A DNA stretch of 64,000 nucleotides from Streptomyces sp. SCSIO 30461 (GTDB lineage: Bacteria; Actinomycetota; Actinomycetes; Streptomycetales; Streptomycetaceae). Below are positions 37,700-54,679 of the stretch, piece by piece; position 1 is the stretch's first letter; each line of letters starts with the position of its first letter. The position numbers were made by a program, and so were the translations under genes. The stretch covers positions 7,234,001 to 7,298,000 of the forward strand of contig NZ_CP146101.1 in NCBI RefSeq assembly GCF_037023745.1, read 5' to 3'. The notes beneath the pieces were generated by a model. That model saw nothing but the letters and a program-made list of their open reading frames with translations. It did no database searches and had not been told where the DNA came from.

Positions 37700-37885
37700 A
37701 ATCGGGCCGCTCGCGCCGAATCCGACCATTCCGCAAGGAAAGTGAGGAACCGGGGACCCAACCCTCCTGCGCCGACCAGCACAAGAGGGGCTCCACCGGG
37801 GTGAATCGGGCCAAGCCCAGCAAGGCCCGTAGGACAACCTTCCGTTCCGTCCGAACCCGACAGCTAACCCGGTAGGCGGCAAACG
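37700..37885 (+). promoter_or_regulatory. c-di-AMP riboswitch (ydaO-yuaA type)
   Basis: The leader of the NlpC/P60 gene carries the conserved ydaO signature in order: GCCGAATCCG (37715-37724), GAGGAACCGGGG, GGGGTGAATC (37797-37806), then CCCGACAGCTAACCCGGT and GGCGGC (about 37875-37880), closing the P1 helix with the early GCCG. This is the c-di-AMP class known upstream of Streptomyces cell-wall hydrolase genes such as rpfA. It ends six bases before the ribosome site. High c-di-AMP would be expected to repress the gene. The rest of the gap, 37453-37699, holds the promoter and nothing else visible. Confidence 0.92.
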
Positions 37886-37900
37886 GAAGGAGATGCCGTC

Positions 37901-48066: not shown

Positions 48067-49680
48067 TCACTCCCACTCGATGGTGCCCGGGGGCTTGGAG
48101 GTCACATCGAGGACGACGCGGTTGACGTCGGCGACCTCGTTGGTGATGCGGGTGGAGATCTTCGCCAGCACCTCGTACGGCATCCGGGTCCAGTCCGCCG
48201 TCATGGCGTCCTCGGACGAGACCGGGCGGAGCACGATCGGGTGGCCGTAGGTGCGGCCGTCACCCTGCACGCCGACCGAACGCACATCGGCGAGCAGGAC
48301 CACCGGGCACTGCCAGATCTCACGGTCGAGACCGGCCGTCGTGAGCTCTTCACGGGCGATGGCGTCGGCCTCGCGCAGCAGGTCGAGCCGCTCCTTGGTG
48401 ACCTCGCCGACGATGCGGATGCCGAGGCCGGGGCCAGGGAACGGCTGGCGGTGGACGATCTCCTCCGGGAGGCCGAGTTCCTGGCCGACCATCCGGACCT
48501 CGTCCTTGAACAGCTTGCGCAGCGGCTCGATCAGCTCGAACTCGAGGTCCTCGGGGAGGCCGCCGACATTGTGGTGGGACTTGATGTTCGCGGTACCGGT
48601 GCCGCCTCCGGACTCCACCACATCGGGGTAGAGCGTGCCCTGCACCAGGAACTGGACGGGCTCGTCGCCGTGCGCGCCCGCCTCGGCGACGATCTCGGCC
48701 TGCGCCTGCTCGAAGACCCGGATGAACTCCCGGCCGATGATCTTGCGCTTCTGCTCGGGGTCGGACACCCCGGCCAGCGCGTCGAGGAAACGCTGCTGGG
48801 CGTCGACGACCTTCAGGGAGACCCCGGTCGCGGCGACGAAGTCCTTCTCGACCTGCTCGGTCTCGCCCTTGCGCATCAGACCGTGGTCGACGTAGACGCA
48901 GGTCAGCTGGGAGCCGATGGCCTTCTGCACGAGGGCGGCGGCGACGGCCGAGTCCACCCCGCCGGACAGCCCGCAGATGGCGCGCTTGGCGCCGACCTGC
49001 TCGCGGATCGCGGCGACCTGCTCCTCGATGACATTGCCGGTGGTCCAGGTCGGCTCGATGCCGGCACCCCGGTAGAGGAAGTGCTCCAGGACCTGCTGGC
49101 CGTACGTCGAGTGCATCACCTCGGGGTGGTACTGCACGCCGTAGAGCTTCTTCGCGTCGTTCTCGAAGGCGGCGACCGGGACCACGTCGGTGGACGCGGT
49201 GACGGTGAAGCCCTCGGGCGCGGCGGAGCAGGCGTCACCGTGCGACATCCACACCGGCTGCTCGGCCGGGGTGCCCTCGAAGAGGGTGGAGCCGGGCTTG
49301 CTGACGTGCATGCCGGTACGGCCGTACTCGCGGGCGCCGGAGTTGTCGACGGTGCCGCCGAGGGTCCGCGCCATCAGCTGGAAGCCGTAGCACATACCGA
49401 AGACGGGCACGCCGGCCTCGAAGAGCGCACGGTCGAGCTGCGGGGCACCCTCCTCGTACACGGACGAGGGACCACCGGAGAGGATGATCGCGGCCGGGTT
49501 CTTCGCCAGCATCTCGGAGACCGGCATCGTGGACGGCACGATCTCGCTGTAGACCCGGGCCTCGCGGACTCGGCGGGCGATGAGCTGGGCGTACTGGGCG
49601 CCGAAGTCGACAACGAGGACGGCGCGGACATCGTCCGGGCTGTCGTTGTCGGGCGCGGCAGCGGTGGGCGCTGAGGACAC
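48067..49680 (-). CDS. guaA: GMP synthase (glutamine-hydrolysing)
   Basis: This 537-residue enzyme aminates XMP to GMP. The class I glutamine amidotransferase domain has [18 protein letters not shown], the nucleophile in [11 protein letters not shown] and the His/Glu pair in YHPEVMHST. The synthetase domain has the PP-loop [18 protein letters not shown], and the C-terminal dimer domain ends PPGTIEWE. It starts with GTG at 49680. Confidence 0.97.
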
Positions 49681-49829
49681 TACGGCGGCCTTCCGGCGTG
49701 CTGGGCGGGGGTTCTGTTTGTTGATTCTACCGGCGGCGCCGAGCCTCGCCGGGCCCCTGTTCGTATCACCATCCGAATCGCCCGGCCGCCCGGCTGGCTC
49801 CGAAGCGGCCCTGAAGGCATACTGGGGCT
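49681..49829. promoter_or_regulatory. Divergent promoter region of guaA and the chorismate mutase leader
   Basis: No gene is visible. On the plus strand CATACT (49818-49823) is a candidate -10 placed so that transcription would begin at or near the leader-peptide ATG at 49830. The minus-strand promoter for guaA must also lie here. Confidence 0.4.
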
Positions 49830-49901
49830 ATGCGCAAGCACCCGACCTTCGTCTTTACCTATGGCATCCGGCCCGCCGGCTGCCATGGTCGTGCTGCTTG
49901 A
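49830..49901 (+). CDS. Candidate Phe/Tyr attenuator leader peptide upstream of chorismate mutase
   Basis: A 23-codon open frame (ATG at 49830, TGA at 49899-49901) encodes a peptide with TFVFTYG in its middle: two Phe and one Tyr within seven codons. It is followed by a strong GC hairpin at 49926-49952 and then the gene for chorismate mutase, the branch enzyme that makes prephenate for Phe and Tyr. This arrangement is that of transcription attenuation. GGCCCG (49870-49875) could pair with CGGGCC (49931-49936) as an anti-terminator. Low Phe- or Tyr-tRNA would then raise chorismate mutase expression. Confidence 0.55.
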   Translation: MRKHPTFVFTYGIRPAGCHGRAA

Positions 49902-49925
49902 GCAACTGACAAGCGACTTCCCAGG

Positions 49926-49952
49926 CGCCCCGGGCCGACAAGGCCCGGGGCG
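49926..49952 (+). terminator. Putative attenuator hairpin
   Basis: CGCCCCGGGCC (49926-49936) and GGCCCGGGGCG (49942-49952) form a perfect 11-base stem with a GACAA loop followed by TTCT. It lies between the leader peptide and the chorismate mutase start, so it would act on transcription of that gene rather than after another one. Confidence 0.75.
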
Positions 49953-50023
49953 TTCTGCGTTGCGGGCGGTGTCGTCCGGCGCTTCCGGGGCGTCTTGGAC
50001 CATCCACCAAGGAGACCTCCGCC

Positions 50024-50317
50024 ATGGCCCTCACCACCACCTCCGCACCCGAGACCGGCGCGCGCACCCCCGAGGCAGCCGCGCTCATCGATGACGCGCG
50101 TGAGCGCATCGACACACTCGACGACAGGATCATCGGCCTGATCCAGGAACGGATGGCCGTCTCGGCTGTCATCCAGGCGGCCAGGATCGCCTCGGGCGGC
50201 CGCCGGGTGAACCTCGCCCGCGAGATGGAGGTGCTGAGCAGGTACCGGGGCGCGCTGGGCAAGCCGGGTACGCCGCTGGCGATGACGCTGCTCGAACTGT
50301 GCCGCGGTCGTGTCTGA
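50024..50317 (+). CDS. Chorismate mutase (AroQ type)
   Basis: This 97-residue all-helical enzyme has IDDARERIDTLDDRIIGLIQ and ERMAVSAVIQAARIASGGRR with the Arg and Lys/Arg residues of the AroQ active site, then REMEVLSRYRGALG. It converts chorismate to prephenate for Phe and Tyr. GGAG lies upstream of the ATG. In M. tuberculosis a chorismate mutase (Rv0948c) adjoins uvrD1, and here the gene is in the same larger neighbourhood. It is probably under the attenuator described at 49830. Confidence 0.9.
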   Translation: MALTTTSAPETGARTPEAAALIDDARERIDTLDDRIIGLIQERMAVSAVIQAARIASGGRRVNLAREMEVLSRYRGALGKPGTPLAMTLLELCRGRV

Positions 50318-50522: not shown

Positions 50523-50579
50523 GTCACCCCGACTGCGGTCGGCTCCGGGCACGCCCGGGACCGACCGCAGTCGGGTCAC
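50523..50579. terminator. Hairpin between chorismate mutase and the LAXTG protein gene
   Basis: The arm at 50523-50542 (core GACTGCGGTCGG) pairs with CCGACCGCAGTC and the following bases (50561-50579), giving an approximately 19-base stem with one bulge. It lies between convergent genes. The remainder of 50318-50616 shows no gene. Confidence 0.82.
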
Positions 50580-50616: not shown

Positions 50617-52347
50617 CTACCGCTGTGCGGCGCGCCTGCGGTTCTTGGCGTACAGGACGGTGCCGAGTGCCAGCGCCGCCGCGGCGGCGCCGCCGGTGAG
50701 CAGGACCGTGGTGCCGGTCGAGGCGAGCCCGCCGCCGGTCCCGGAGCCCGAGCCGGAGGTGGAGCCCGAGCCGGACGTGCCCCCCGATTCCTCGGTGCCG
50801 CCGCTCGTTGCGCCCTCGGTGCTCGAACCGCCGGCGGAACCGCCGGTCGAGCCACCCGTGGAACCGCTGGAGCCGGCGGTGGCTCCCGATTCGTCCTTGC
50901 CGTTCAGGACGATCTTGGCGGTGTTGTTGCGCATGTCCGGGTCGAAGTGCAGCGCGGGCTGCTCGTCGTACCAGTTACGCACGGTGACGGAGCCGGTAGC
51001 CTGCTTCACGACCTTCTCGATCTTCATCTCGAAGGGCAGCGCGAAGTTCTCCTTCTCCAGCACCACCATCGGGACGGCGCAGAAGTAGCGGGACGCGCCG
51101 AGCTGCTTCTCGCGCAGGTCTCCGGAGGCGGTGGCGGCGCGGCAGATCTTCGGCTTCTCGGTGACCTTGGCGCCCTGCGGCACCTTTACGTCGACGGTGC
51201 CGATGGCCTCACCGGAGCGCAGGTAGGCGATCCAGGCGGGGCCGTTGTTGCGGAAGCCGATGGTCGTCCTGACCGTCTCACCGGCCGCCGCCTTCTCGAC
51301 GCTCGCGCCGTACGCGACGAAGTCCGCGGTGTTCTCGGCGCGGATCGATTGTTCCTGCTGGTTGTCCCAGGGGTCGAGGTCCGCGCCGCGCGCCGCGGCC
51401 GACATCTTCTTCAGCGTGAGGGGCGCACCGGTGCCCCTGGTGAACGAGGCCCCACCGCGCTCCTCCTTGAGCGCGCTCGGGCTCATCTCCTCGACGCGGT
51501 AGATGAAGTCCTCGTAGAAGGCGTGCTTGGTCGCCTTGACGGTGAAGGGCTCCGTCAGCTCGTAGACCGCGCCCGCCTCGAAGGGCCCGTCGAGCACGCA
51601 GACCGCCTTCGAGTACGCCGTCCCGAAGAAGTCATCTCCGTCCTTGGCGTACTCGCAGTTGGTGTAGCGCTCGGGGATCTCGATGCCGTGCGAGTACATG
51701 AGCGTGATCAGGACGCCCTGGGCGGCGGAGGTGCCGCTGTTGGCGAAGGCGAGCCTGGCGGGCTGGGCATCGCCCGGCTTGACCTCCTCCTTCAGCTTGA
51801 GCGGCTTCATGACCAGGTCCACACCACCGACCTCGACCCTGGTCGAGTGGGAGGTGAAGGTCGCGCCCTCGGCCTGGCCGGTGACCTTGATGGTCCCGGA
51901 CACGCCGACCTCGCTTCCCTTCGCCGCGGTGATCTCCAGGCGGGCGACACTGCTGAGCCCCGGCCAGACACCCCAGTCGTGGCAGACTCCGAGCGTCCCG
52001 GTGATCTTGCAGTCGGCGCTGCCCGCGCCCTCGGGGTCGAAGCGGACGTCCGCGACACCGGCCAGACCGCTCAGGTCGAGGGTGACGGTGTACTCACCCT
52101 CGAAGAAGCCCTCTTCCTCGTCCTCGGAGGGGTTGTCCACAGTGAAGTCGACGACCGCCTTCCTCGGCTTGCCGGACGCGGGGTACGCGTGCAGGCCCAC
52201 ATCGGATGGGCCGCTGAGGGTGAAGACCGGGTCCGACTCGGCCGCCTGGGCGGGTACGGCGGCGAGACCGGTTACGGCCAGCAGCCCGGCGGCAGCCAGG
52301 CCGGCTGCGCCGCGGCGCAGCCCGGCCGGGGCGGAAAGGCGTCTCAT
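50617..52347 (-). CDS. LAXTG-anchored cell-surface protein
   Basis: This 576-residue protein has a signal peptide (AAGLAAAGLLAVTGLAAVPA then AESD). About 430 residues of beta-rich, Ig-like extracellular sequence follow (VDFTVDNPSEDEEE, FANSGTSAAQGVLITLMYSHG, FRNNGPAWIAYLRSG), then a Gly/Ser/Thr spacer. It ends with LASTG, a hydrophobic helix and RRRAAQR, the class E sortase signal of Streptomyces. No sortase gene is in this window. A CRP-like palindrome lies about 145 bases upstream. Ligand or role is unknown. Confidence 0.9.
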   Translation of the reverse strand: MRRLSAPAGLRRGAAGLAAAGLLAVTGLAAVPAQAAESDPVFTLSGPSDVGLHAYPASGKPRKAVVDFTVDNPSEDEEEGFFEGEYTVTLDLSGLAGVADVRFDPEGAGSADCKITGTLGVCHDWGVWPGLSSVARLEITAAKGSEVGVSGTIKVTGQAEGATFTSHSTRVEVGGVDLVMKPLKLKEEVKPGDAQPARLAFANSGTSAAQGVLITLMYSHGIEIPERYTNCEYAKDGDDFFGTAYSKAVCVLDGPFEAGAVYELTEPFTVKATKHAFYEDFIYRVEEMSPSALKEERGGASFTRGTGAPLTLKKMSAAARGADLDPWDNQQEQSIRAENTADFVAYGASVEKAAAGETVRTTIGFRNNGPAWIAYLRSGEAIGTVDVKVPQGAKVTEKPKICRAATASGDLREKQLGASRYFCAVPMVVLEKENFALPFEMKIEKVVKQATGSVTVRNWYDEQPALHFDPDMRNNTAKIVLNGKDESGATAGSSGSTGGSTGGSAGGSSTEGATSGGTEESGGTSGSGSTSGSGSGTGGGLASTGTTVLLTGGAAAAALALGTVLYAKNRRRAAQR

Positions 52348-52759: not shown

Positions 52760-54679
52760 TCACTTCTTCGGCGGGACCGCCGGAATCCCCAGGAACGGCA
52801 GATTCAGCGCGCCGAAGGCATCCGCCGGCACTGCCGGGGCCTTCGGCGCCACCGGCGCCAGTCGCTCGTATGCCGCGCTCTGCTCCGGGCGGGTGTCCTC
52901 CTCGCCCTTGTTGGGCCAGAACGACATCGCCCGCTCGGCCTGGGCCGTGATCGTCAGGGACGGATTCACACCGAGGTTCGCGGAGACCGCCGCACCGTCG
53001 ACGACCGAGATTCCCGGGTGGCCGTAGAGCCGGTGGTACGGGTCGATCACTCCGGACTCGGCGGAGGCGCCGATCGGACAGCCACCCAGGAAGTGCGCGG
53101 TGATCGGGGCGCCGACCAGCTCACCTATGTTGGAGCCGGCGAAGCCGTTGATCTCCTTGGCGAGCAGCGTGGCTGCCTCGGTGGCGATGGCGATCTGCGT
53201 GGGGTTCGGCGCTCCGTGTCCCTGGCGGGCGGTGAGCAGGCCCTTGCCGAGGCCCTTCGGCTTGCGGTACGTGGTCAACGAGTTGTCCAGCGACTGCATG
53301 ACCAGGCCGATGATGGAGCGCTCGGACCATCGGCGGTTCGAGAGAGCGCGCATCGCCAGCCAGGGATGCCGGGCGATGCGCCCGGTCCAGCGCGCGACCC
53401 GGTGCTTGGCGCTGAAGGGCACCTGGAGCACGGTGACGCCGCCCATGGCGTTGGAGCCCTTGCCGTAGCGGACCGGCTCGATGTGGGTGTCGGCGTCCGG
53501 GTGGATCGACGATGTGATCGCAACACCGCGGGTGAAGTCGACCTTCTTCGCGCCGTGCGCCTTCCGGTAACGGCGGTTGTCGGTTTGGGCGCCGACGATC
53601 GCCTCGGAGTTGGTGCGGGTCATCTCACCGAGCCGCGCCGAGATCCGAGGCAGCAGACCGGTGTCCTTCATCCGGTGCAGCAGGCTCTGGGTGCCGTACG
53701 TCCCGGCGGCGACGACGACCCGCCGCGCCGTGAACGTGCGCCCGTGGCCCTTGCGCTTCTTGTCGGTGGGCAGGGTCCTGACCGCGAAGCCGCCGCGCGA
53801 GTCCTCGGTGACGGCGACGACCGAGGTCATGGGGTGGATGACCGCACCCACCTGCTCGGCGAGGTGGAGGTAGTTCTCGTTGAGGGTGTTCTTGGCTCCG
53901 TGGCGGCAGCCGGTCATGCACTCGCCGCACTCGGTGCAGGCACGGCGCGTGGGGCCCGCACCGCCGAAGTACGGGTCGGGCACCTCCGCACCGGGCTGGA
54001 CCTTCGCGGTGCCGGTGCCGTCCTCGGTGGCGGCGTCCTTGCCGTCGCCGAAGAAGACGCCCACCGGCGCCATGTGGAAGGTGTCACCTACGCCCATGGC
54101 CTCGGCGGTCGCCTTGAGGTGCACGTCGGACAAGGTCATGGTCGGGTTGAGTCGCACGCCCAGCATCCGCTTGGCCTGGTCGTAGTACGGCTTCAGCTCG
54201 TCCTGCCAGTCGGTGATGTCCTTCCACTGCGGGTCGTTGAAGAACGGGGCGGGCGGCACGTACAGCGTGTTGGCGTAGTTCAGGGAGCCGCCGCCGACCC
54301 CCGCGCCCGCCAGCACCATCACATTGCCCAGCAGATGGATGCGCTGGATGCCGAAGAGGCCGAGGGCCGGGGCCCACAGGTAGTTGCGCAGGTCCCAGGA
54401 GTTCTTGGGCAGGGTCTCGCGGGTGAAGCGGCGGCCCGCCTCGAGGACGCCCACGCGGTAGCCCTTCTCGCTGAGGCGCAGGGCCGAGACCGAGCCGCCG
54501 AATCCGGAGCCGATGACGACGACGTCGTAGTCGTATGCGGAGTCGGCTTCGCTCACGTCGCTCCCGTCGTTCCCGTCGTTCACGTCGCTCCCGTCGTTCC
54601 CGTCGTTCCCGTCGCTCCCGTCGTTCCCGTCGTTCCCGTCCTGGTTCCGGGCTGCTGAGGACGCAGGAAGATCGGACAT
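52760..54679 (-). CDS. choD: ChoD-like GMC oxidoreductase with a Cys cluster
   Basis: This 639-residue FAD protein closely resembles mycobacterial ChoD. It has VVVIGSGFGGSVSALRLSEKGYRVGVLEAG, LAGAGVGGGSLNYANTLYVP, CTECGECMTGCRHGAKNTL and a C-terminal GHPGISVVDGAAVSANLG segment. The Cys pattern CxxCxxCxxxC is unusual for a GMC enzyme and could bind an iron-sulfur cluster. ChoD was annotated as cholesterol oxidase, but its true substrate is uncertain. The ATG at 54679 has a GAGGAG site; residues 14-40 come from a 9-base minisatellite (NDGNDGSD units). A GTG at 54556 is an alternative start that would exclude the repeats. Confidence 0.85.
   Translation of the reverse strand: MSDLPASSAARNQDGNDGNDGSDGNDGNDGSDVNDGNDGSDVSEADSAYDYDVVVIGSGFGGSVSALRLSEKGYRVGVLEAGRRFTRETLPKNSWDLRNYLWAPALGLFGIQRIHLLGNVMVLAGAGVGGGSLNYANTLYVPPAPFFNDPQWKDITDWQDELKPYYDQAKRMLGVRLNPTMTLSDVHLKATAEAMGVGDTFHMAPVGVFFGDGKDAATEDGTGTAKVQPGAEVPDPYFGGAGPTRRACTECGECMTGCRHGAKNTLNENYLHLAEQVGAVIHPMTSVVAVTEDSRGGFAVRTLPTDKKRKGHGRTFTARRVVVAAGTYGTQSLLHRMKDTGLLPRISARLGEMTRTNSEAIVGAQTDNRRYRKAHGAKKVDFTRGVAITSSIHPDADTHIEPVRYGKGSNAMGGVTVLQVPFSAKHRVARWTGRIARHPWLAMRALSNRRWSERSIIGLVMQSLDNSLTTYRKPKGLGKGLLTARQGHGAPNPTQIAIATEAATLLAKEINGFAGSNIGELVGAPITAHFLGGCPIGASAESGVIDPYHRLYGHPGISVVDGAAVSANLGVNPSLTITAQAERAMSFWPNKGEEDTRPEQSAAYERLAPVAPKAPAVPADAFGALNLPFLGIPAVPPKK
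54556..54636. repeat. 9-base minisatellite (27-base higher-order unit, three copies) in the choD-like gene
   Basis: Nine tandem copies of CGTCGYTCM run from 54556 to 54636, organised as three 27-base blocks (CGTCGCTCC, CGTCGTTCC, CGTCGTTCM). They encode Asn/Asp/Gly-rich repeats at the N-terminus and preserve frame. Unit copy number is likely variable between strains. Confidence 0.9.

Follow-up and report, generated by a model that had tools for sequence, protein, structure and literature searches.

Does the short reading frame that precedes the chorismate mutase (CM) gene of Streptomyces sp. SCSIO 30461 belong to a transcription attenuator that reports on the supply of phenylalanine and tyrosine? 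The locus lies in the stretch of DNA analysed here, hereafter the window, which spans 64,000 nucleotides of the 8.05 Mb chromosome. An earlier note on the letters had drawn attention to a 23-codon frame containing TFVFTYG, a perfect 11-bp GC hairpin 25 bases behind it and a CM gene 71 bases further on. The leader and hairpin are indeed present upstream of the gene, and the frame lies where the note had placed it (Table 1). The hairpin arms, CGCCCCGGGCC (49926-49936) and GGCCCGGGGCG (49942-49952), pair perfectly, although the spacing had been miscounted, there being 24 nt between the stop codon and the hairpin. The 71 nt from the hairpin to the CM start agree with the sequence, and the identity of the gene is borne out by matches to NCBIfam NF005894, a type II chorismate mutase (E 7.2e-36), and to Pfam CM_2 (E 2.4e-8); its closest named matches are nearly all from Streptomyces. 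It has its own ribosome-binding site, AAGGAG, at 50009-50014.

Table 1. Features of the leader region and its neighbours, in window coordinates
Feature	Position	Strand	Basis
guaA (GMP synthase), divergent neighbour, outside the switch	48067..49680	-	
-10 element CATACT, ending 6 nt before the leader ATG	49818..49823	+	alignment, 130 rows
Phe/Tyr leader frame, 23 codons, MRKHPTFVFTYGIRPAGCHGRAA; ATG 49830, stop TGA 49899-49901	49830..49901	+	
First Phe codon, TTC	49848..49850	+	codon count, 128 loci
Putative sensor Phe codon, the rare TTT	49854..49856	+	130 of 130 rows
Putative sensor Tyr codon, TAT; last two bases inside the 1:2 stem	49860..49862	+	130 of 130 rows
Predicted 1:2 (protector) hairpin: ATGGCA 49861-49866 with TGCCAT 49881-49886; inner CCGG 49868-49871 with CCGG 49876-49879	49861..49886	+	folding
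Predicted antiterminator: CGGCCCG 49869-49875 with CGGGCCG 49931-49937	49869..49937	+	folding, swaps
Antiterminator, further pairs: 49878-49880, 49882-49884 and 49886-49888 with 49921-49929			
Antiterminator, apical stem holding the end of the leader frame: 49895-49900 with 49910-49915			
Terminator-like hairpin, 11 bp, loop GACAA, then weak tail TTCTGCGTTG	49926..49952	+	folding, covariation
CM gene, the controlled gene in the proposed reading	50024..50317	+	NCBIfam and Pfam matches
			

Conservation of the leader and its codons

A DNA search of the genus with positions 49700-50317, a query that includes the CM gene, found matches in 149 of 150 genomes. Where the match was split, similarity was higher over the leader piece than over the gene (e.g. 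91 versus 76%, 90 versus 75% and 88 versus 81%). For a base-by-base comparison we aligned 130 rows, comprising the window and 129 loci: 30 from genomes of the genus, the window's own included, 80 named records chosen as best CM matches and 19 of 20 more divergent loci picked deliberately; the missing one, L116, ends before the leader block and gave no match. Identity is high from the -10 element throughout the leader and hairpin; downstream it falls at once, and only a short block near 49962-49966 is kept there.

Of the 130 rows, 129 open the frame with ATG or GTG, and a script found it uninterrupted between the aligned start and a nearby stop in 128 of the 129 loci. Its sole exception, L118, was missed by an exact motif search and is in frame from an ATG of its own. 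The string TTT-ACC-TAT-GGC is invariant save for one base in one row (AGC in L118). Outside F-x-F-T-Y-G and the C-terminal end, by contrast, the peptide is variable. Indeed, the CGGCCCG segment is read as RPA in some leaders and as GPS in others, because it sits one base apart between species; as the reading changes while the RNA segment stays, it is the RNA segment, and not the peptide, that is kept. Alignment across Streptomyces was the comparison on which, according to the earlier note, the proposal could fail: the leader frame and its Phe and Tyr codons are conserved there, and the locus thus appears to possess the short frame with end-product codons that is one mark of such a switch.

Within the -10 element, A49819, A49821 and T49823 are invariant in all 130 rows, and T49820 is kept in 126. 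In the available sections of PMC8079986, the -10 consensus of Streptomyces lividans is given as TAnnnT, mostly with 5-7 nt to the start site. We infer that transcription starts at or adjoining the leader ATG, from a leaderless promoter; the earlier suggestion of a leaderless peptide gains from the retention of these -10 bases. A parser that demanded TAnnnT kept only 62 of 222 loci, because the element here is CATACT, and was abandoned for a widened version that parsed 207 of the 222.

The Phe codons of the leader are not used alike. The first is TTC in 118, a Tyr TAC in 4 and another codon in 6 of 128 loci (L118 being left out). In the table of 207 parsed loci (222 examined, with some genomes present twice), the Phe codon adjoining the Tyr codon is TTT in 205, versus 215 TTC and 9 TTT among the remaining Phe codons of these leaders. 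This table is conditional in its figures for TAT, the -10 element and the frame, since a locus entered it only if the parser saw a Tyr-like anchor, a start in frame and a site resembling a -10 element; the figures from the 130 rows and 129 loci are free of that condition. Across 35 GC3-rich open reading frames of the window, TTT accounts for 4 and TTC for 327 of 331 Phe codons. The constancy of TAT is due in part to its pairing with GCCAT in the 1:2 stem; in loci of family f37, TAC is accompanied by GCCGT. No pairing was found that explains TTT at 49854-49856. Both Phe codons are probably decoded by a single tRNA-Phe, in which case decoding speed, rather than the choice of isoacceptor, would set the sensitivity. 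A near-invariant TTT in a genome that hardly uses it offers a clean, testable case of the tuning of an attenuator by a rare codon.

Some neighbouring features may be recorded here. Between the CM gene and a convergent gene lies a long inverted repeat, CCGACTGCGGTCGG ... CCGACCGCAGTCGG (50528-50575), which resembles a shared bidirectional terminator. The convergent frame (50617-52347, minus strand, 576 aa) has Gly/Ser/Thr-rich repeats followed by an LASTG end, a hydrophobic stretch and KNRRRAAQR, a predicted ending as in sortase-anchored surface proteins. Beyond it, the frame at 52760-54679 (minus strand) resembles a GMC-type oxidoreductase and has a series of GND/GSD repeats at its N terminus.

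Alternative pairings of the leader RNA

Folded as a whole, the leader is predicted to adopt the 1:2 hairpin together with the terminator. The leader and hairpin fold better than chance (z -5.07; none of 200 shuffles as good); with the right arm removed, z is -1.13 and 26 of 200 shuffles are as good. The 1:2 hairpin has a mean minimum free energy of -18.1, compared with -9.6 for block-shuffled sequences. The earlier note had suggested that GGCCCG at the end of the leader could pair with the left arm of the hairpin, and CGGCCCG (49869-49875) is indeed complementary to CGGGCCG (49931-49937), which comprises part of the left arm and the first base of the loop. To represent a ribosome, the bases under it were masked, a footprint of +12 being the rule of thumb. 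Masked to TTT+12 and with the right arm absent, the RNA is predicted to form the long antiterminator with the left arm (-32.9 kcal/mol; 49866-49937); with TAT in the A site only part of it forms (-23.9); and with the mask extended to the stop codon the terminator remains. When each of the 129 distinct sequences was masked to the Tyr-Gly motif, the left arm paired with the leader segment in every one, with a mean of 13.3 paired arm bases; block-shuffled controls averaged 5.3 and had at least 5 in 354 of 645 cases.

The terminator-like hairpin co-varies. Among 36 diverse sequences, 33 cells with double changes were counted (32 in the terminator), versus 8.7 in shuffles (0 of 500 as good); set A1, of 32 Streptomyces sequences, has few of them, 3 cells over the 1:2 hairpin and the terminator together. 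The leader segment and left arm also change together: Streptomyces mostly pairs CGGCCCG with CGGGCCG, other genera pair GGTCCGG with CCGGACC or AACCCGG with CCGGGTT, and family f37 has the leader GGAGTCCGG with the arm CCGGGCTCC. Counting double changes of the antiterminator in fixed columns of A1 gave no clear excess (a score reached by 61 of 500 shuffles); because the register of CGGCCCG shifts by one base between species, this count is uninformative, and it was dropped in favour of duplex energies with swapped partners.

Cognate pairs of leader segment and arm outperform swapped ones, both over 90 combinations (0 of 5,000) and over 13 arm types (0 of 20,000). With one sequence from each of 21 hand-picked lineages (22 were named, and L299, which has no hairpin, was dropped), the mean was -19.70 for cognate versus -16.54 for swapped partners (sd 0.51), and none of 20,000 permutations, which ignore relatedness, was as good. 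The leader segment scored z -8.0, compared with 0.6, -0.9 and 1.4 for three control segments. A further control, the 20 nt that follow the terminator, gave z -3.3 (1 of 2,000), and therefore relatedness inflates the swap test to some extent. Two exceptions were seen: L227 (g3), whose own pairing is worse than that with most swapped partners, and a Streptomyces clade with CGGTCC arms, which fits other arms better than its own. In that clade (L120:442-570, L111, L114, L122, L124, L128 and L235) the arms are exchanged, with CGGTCC on the left and GGACCG on the right, and the leader is still GGTCCGG, a better match for GGACC-type arms than for its own left arm; the geometry of antitermination is possibly altered here. 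Overall, the energies, the swaps and the covariation of the hairpin favour conservation of both alternative pairings, as the earlier note had envisaged, and the model is of a mutually exclusive antiterminator and terminator that share an arm and co-vary, with poor agreement in L227 and the CGGTCC clade.

Distribution and downstream genes

Two models were used in searches, R1 built from Streptomyces leaders and R2, which is broader. In its own genome the element has one strong full-length R1 copy; no second copy was seen there, the other eight matches (E up to 1) being hairpin fragments or reverse-strand matches at the same place. Among 121 genomes of the family Streptomycetaceae, R1 gave full-length matches in 16 of the 17 sampled genera; the remaining one, g14, yielded only two weak matches (L217 and L218), which proved to be unrelated. 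Of 43 family loci, 38 have a CM gene by tblastn, and L217, L218, L219, L238 and L239 are secondary or weak matches. A CM-protein search covered 15 family genomes, namely eight of the 19 without an R1 match and seven with a weak one (E 0.0004-0.004; the listing gave the extent of the R1 match for one of the seven): no CM was found in 13, and the other two gave weak hits (29 and 31% identity).

From the longer R1 and R2 match lists, 57 loci were taken in other families of the class. Of these, 8 have CM downstream (families f31, f35, f37, f46 and f48), 35 precede a type I DAHP synthase (f14, f17, f28 and f38) and at 14 neither gene was seen; the DAHP synthase assignments were made from translations, one locus being tested against profiles (NF006421, TIGR01361). 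In all, 19 of 100 loci were dropped, neither gene being seen (L208, L217, L218, L219, L238, L239, L277, L278, L292-L298, L300, L303, L308 and L311); matches to the terminator alone also occur in such searches. By all comparative tests except a few, sequence conservation indicates that the Phe/Tyr leader before CM is well conserved and widespread, and the gene that it precedes belongs to the biosynthesis of the amino acids it would sense.

The codons differ with the gene downstream. Up to the Y-G motif, CM leaders contain a mean of 2.11 Phe, 1.14 Tyr and 0.03 Trp (149 distinct), versus 1.97 Phe, 1.10 Tyr and 1.03 Trp in DAHP synthase leaders (31 distinct, from 34 of 35 loci parsed; in the newer loci the start chosen was that giving the most aromatic residues, at least three being required). 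Trp codons are present in 27 of the 31 distinct DAHP synthase leaders and in 5 of the 149 CM leaders, a contrast carried mainly by f17, with f14 in support; f28, f38 and L286 (f17) are without Trp. The Trp codons match the step controlled, since DAHP synthase also supplies the Trp branch, whereas the CM product leads to Phe and Tyr. The aromatic leaders before type I DAHP synthase in f17 (loci L201-L203, L206, L207, L211-L216, L279-L291, L304-L307, L309 and L310) read, for example, MQRNFWRFYGYRP... or MRTAFWFWYGDGP..., and several have T-runs past the hairpin.

As regards descent, a third, sequence-only model, R3, was built from family CM leaders with the terminator left out and was run on 49 loci (8 CM, 24 DAHP synthase and 17 dropped). 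Among the CM leaders it found both of f37 (5.4e-8 and 1.8e-6) and one of f31 (0.0017), and among the DAHP synthase leaders both of f28 (0.005); a sixth match, L211 (E 0.61), lies away from the leader. In this set the leaders of f17, f14, f38, f35, f46 and f48 all escaped it, as did the dropped loci. As R3 misses the f17 leaders, common descent with the CM leaders is unsupported there, and these DAHP synthase leaders may have arisen by convergence. We would give even odds to the broader view that Actinobacteria share a large, undescribed group of leaderless aromatic attenuators, their codons tuned to the controlled step and the sensor Phe codon kept as UUU. Its further part, that the codons are Phe/Tyr before CM and mostly Phe/Trp/Tyr before DAHP synthase, we hold in the same equal balance. 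The shift in codons between the two kinds of leader amounts to a natural experiment on what leaders sense.

Proposed mechanism and relation to known systems

The explanation that we prefer, with a probability of roughly 0.87, is ribosome-mediated transcription attenuation on a leaderless transcript, responding to Phe in the first place and Tyr in the second. The frame, its codons, the gene, and the possible pairings with their covariation are legible in the sequence; the start site, termination, stalling and direction of response would be as follows. A ribosome would load on the leaderless 5' end and translate the 23-codon leader. With tRNA-Phe and tRNA-Tyr charged, it would reach the stop codon, cover approximately 49868-49911 and open the apical stem, whereupon the left arm would pair with the right arm and RNA polymerase would terminate. 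Were tRNA-Phe (at TTT) or tRNA-Tyr (at TAT) uncharged, the ribosome would stall and thereby cover one half of the 1:2 hairpin; the CGGCCCG segment, now released, would pair with the left arm, forming the antiterminator, and CM would be transcribed. Without translation, the 1:2 and 3:4 hairpins would form and transcription would stop. Phe is probably the main signal, because in the folding model a stall at TTT frees the whole antiterminator segment (-32.9 kcal/mol) and a stall at TAT only part of it (-23.9). Counting against attenuation, mutation of the candidate codons in the S. coelicolor ilvB leader had no effect, as related in the accessible part of PMC1262725.

The weakest point of attenuation by intrinsic termination is the U-poor tail, seen in the window and in many Streptomyces. 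A simple terminator scanner found no site at the hairpin, which argues against termination, and of the features expected of an intrinsic terminator the window presents a co-varying hairpin with a weak U-tract. The leader peptide might therefore work chiefly by way of CM translation, Rho or mRNA stability, and some actinobacterial cys leaders are likewise described as lacking obvious terminators in the available text of PMC1262725. We regard this as unlikely: few parts of the locus are as constant as the GC hairpin, which also co-varies, T-runs follow it in several relatives from other families (for example, TTTTTT in L216), and the ribosome-binding site of CM lies some 56 nt further on, outside both structures. 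The T count over the 10 nt after the stem is similar for both kinds of gene (mean 3.6 for family CM loci versus 4.3 for 12 DAHP synthase loci).

Strong conservation of nucleotides beyond the codons and past the stop, within Streptomyces, is what a small-molecule riboswitch or T-box-like RNA with an incidental short frame might display; yet the post-stop block is lost in the other families examined while the in-frame aromatic codons are retained, codon content tracks the downstream gene, and neither a T-box nor any other Rfam family matches at the leader at gathering score, so that we consider such an RNA very unlikely. The only Rfam match in the window is a c-di-AMP (ydaO/yuaA) riboswitch (RF00379; 70.2 bits; 37704-37894, plus strand); directly past it, a frame from approximately 37902 begins in the manner of a secreted protein, with an apparent signal peptide and coiled coil. 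Hardly credible, in our view, is that the frame encodes a conserved small protein that has a function and a terminator to itself, with CM expressed from another promoter: the peptide is conserved in frame in the aligned Streptomyces loci, but it varies outside the motif and C-terminal end, the RPA/GPS change leaves the RNA segment intact, and across other families the peptides have hardly anything in common except aromatic residues and, in many cases, Y-G.

As to precedent, the earlier note knew of no Phe/Tyr leader for CM. This stands for Streptomyces, in that a search of part of the literature brought up no recognisable description of a CM leader in the genus; more widely, an actinobacterial Phe leader, AroR, and the pheL-pheA pair are precedents. 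In their available sections, a catalogue of eight S. lividans leaders has none for CM (PMC8079986), a 2005 survey of Actinobacteria reports, apart from Trp, Cys, Leu/Ile and T-boxes, no conserved structures ahead of amino acid pathways (PMC1262725), and PMC8914203, PMC13236596, PMC4833913 and PMC12125101 do not mention a CM leader. The 96 novel premature transcripts of S. clavuligerus, given in the accessible part of PMC8269248, may include it. The type of switch is classical, and what is widespread and without an earlier description that we found is a Phe/Tyr leader before CM; it would add regulation where the shikimate pathway branches towards Phe and Tyr, in a genus noted for its antibiotics.

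Compared with the pheL leader of Escherichia coli, the kind of mechanism is the same, a Phe leader controlling CM activity, whereas pheL is preceded by a ribosome-binding site and is not known to be related in sequence. The gene under pheL, pheA, also differs in encoding a fused chorismate mutase-prephenate dehydratase (PMC11802643, available text). Nearer in phylogeny, AroR of Corynebacterium glutamicum is likewise an actinobacterial leader with Phe and Tyr regulatory codons (Phe-Tyr-Phe); compared by description rather than by sequence, it differs in preceding the aroF (DAHP synthase) operon instead of CM, and Phe limitation reportedly enhances transcription, Tyr being without effect (Neshat et al. 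2014, as presented in the accessible parts of PMC4046766 and PMC11802643). Within the genus itself, the trpE and trpS leaders share the arrangement of a leaderless short peptide followed by hairpins, but they carry Trp codons and control other genes (PMC8079986 and PMC1262725, available sections).
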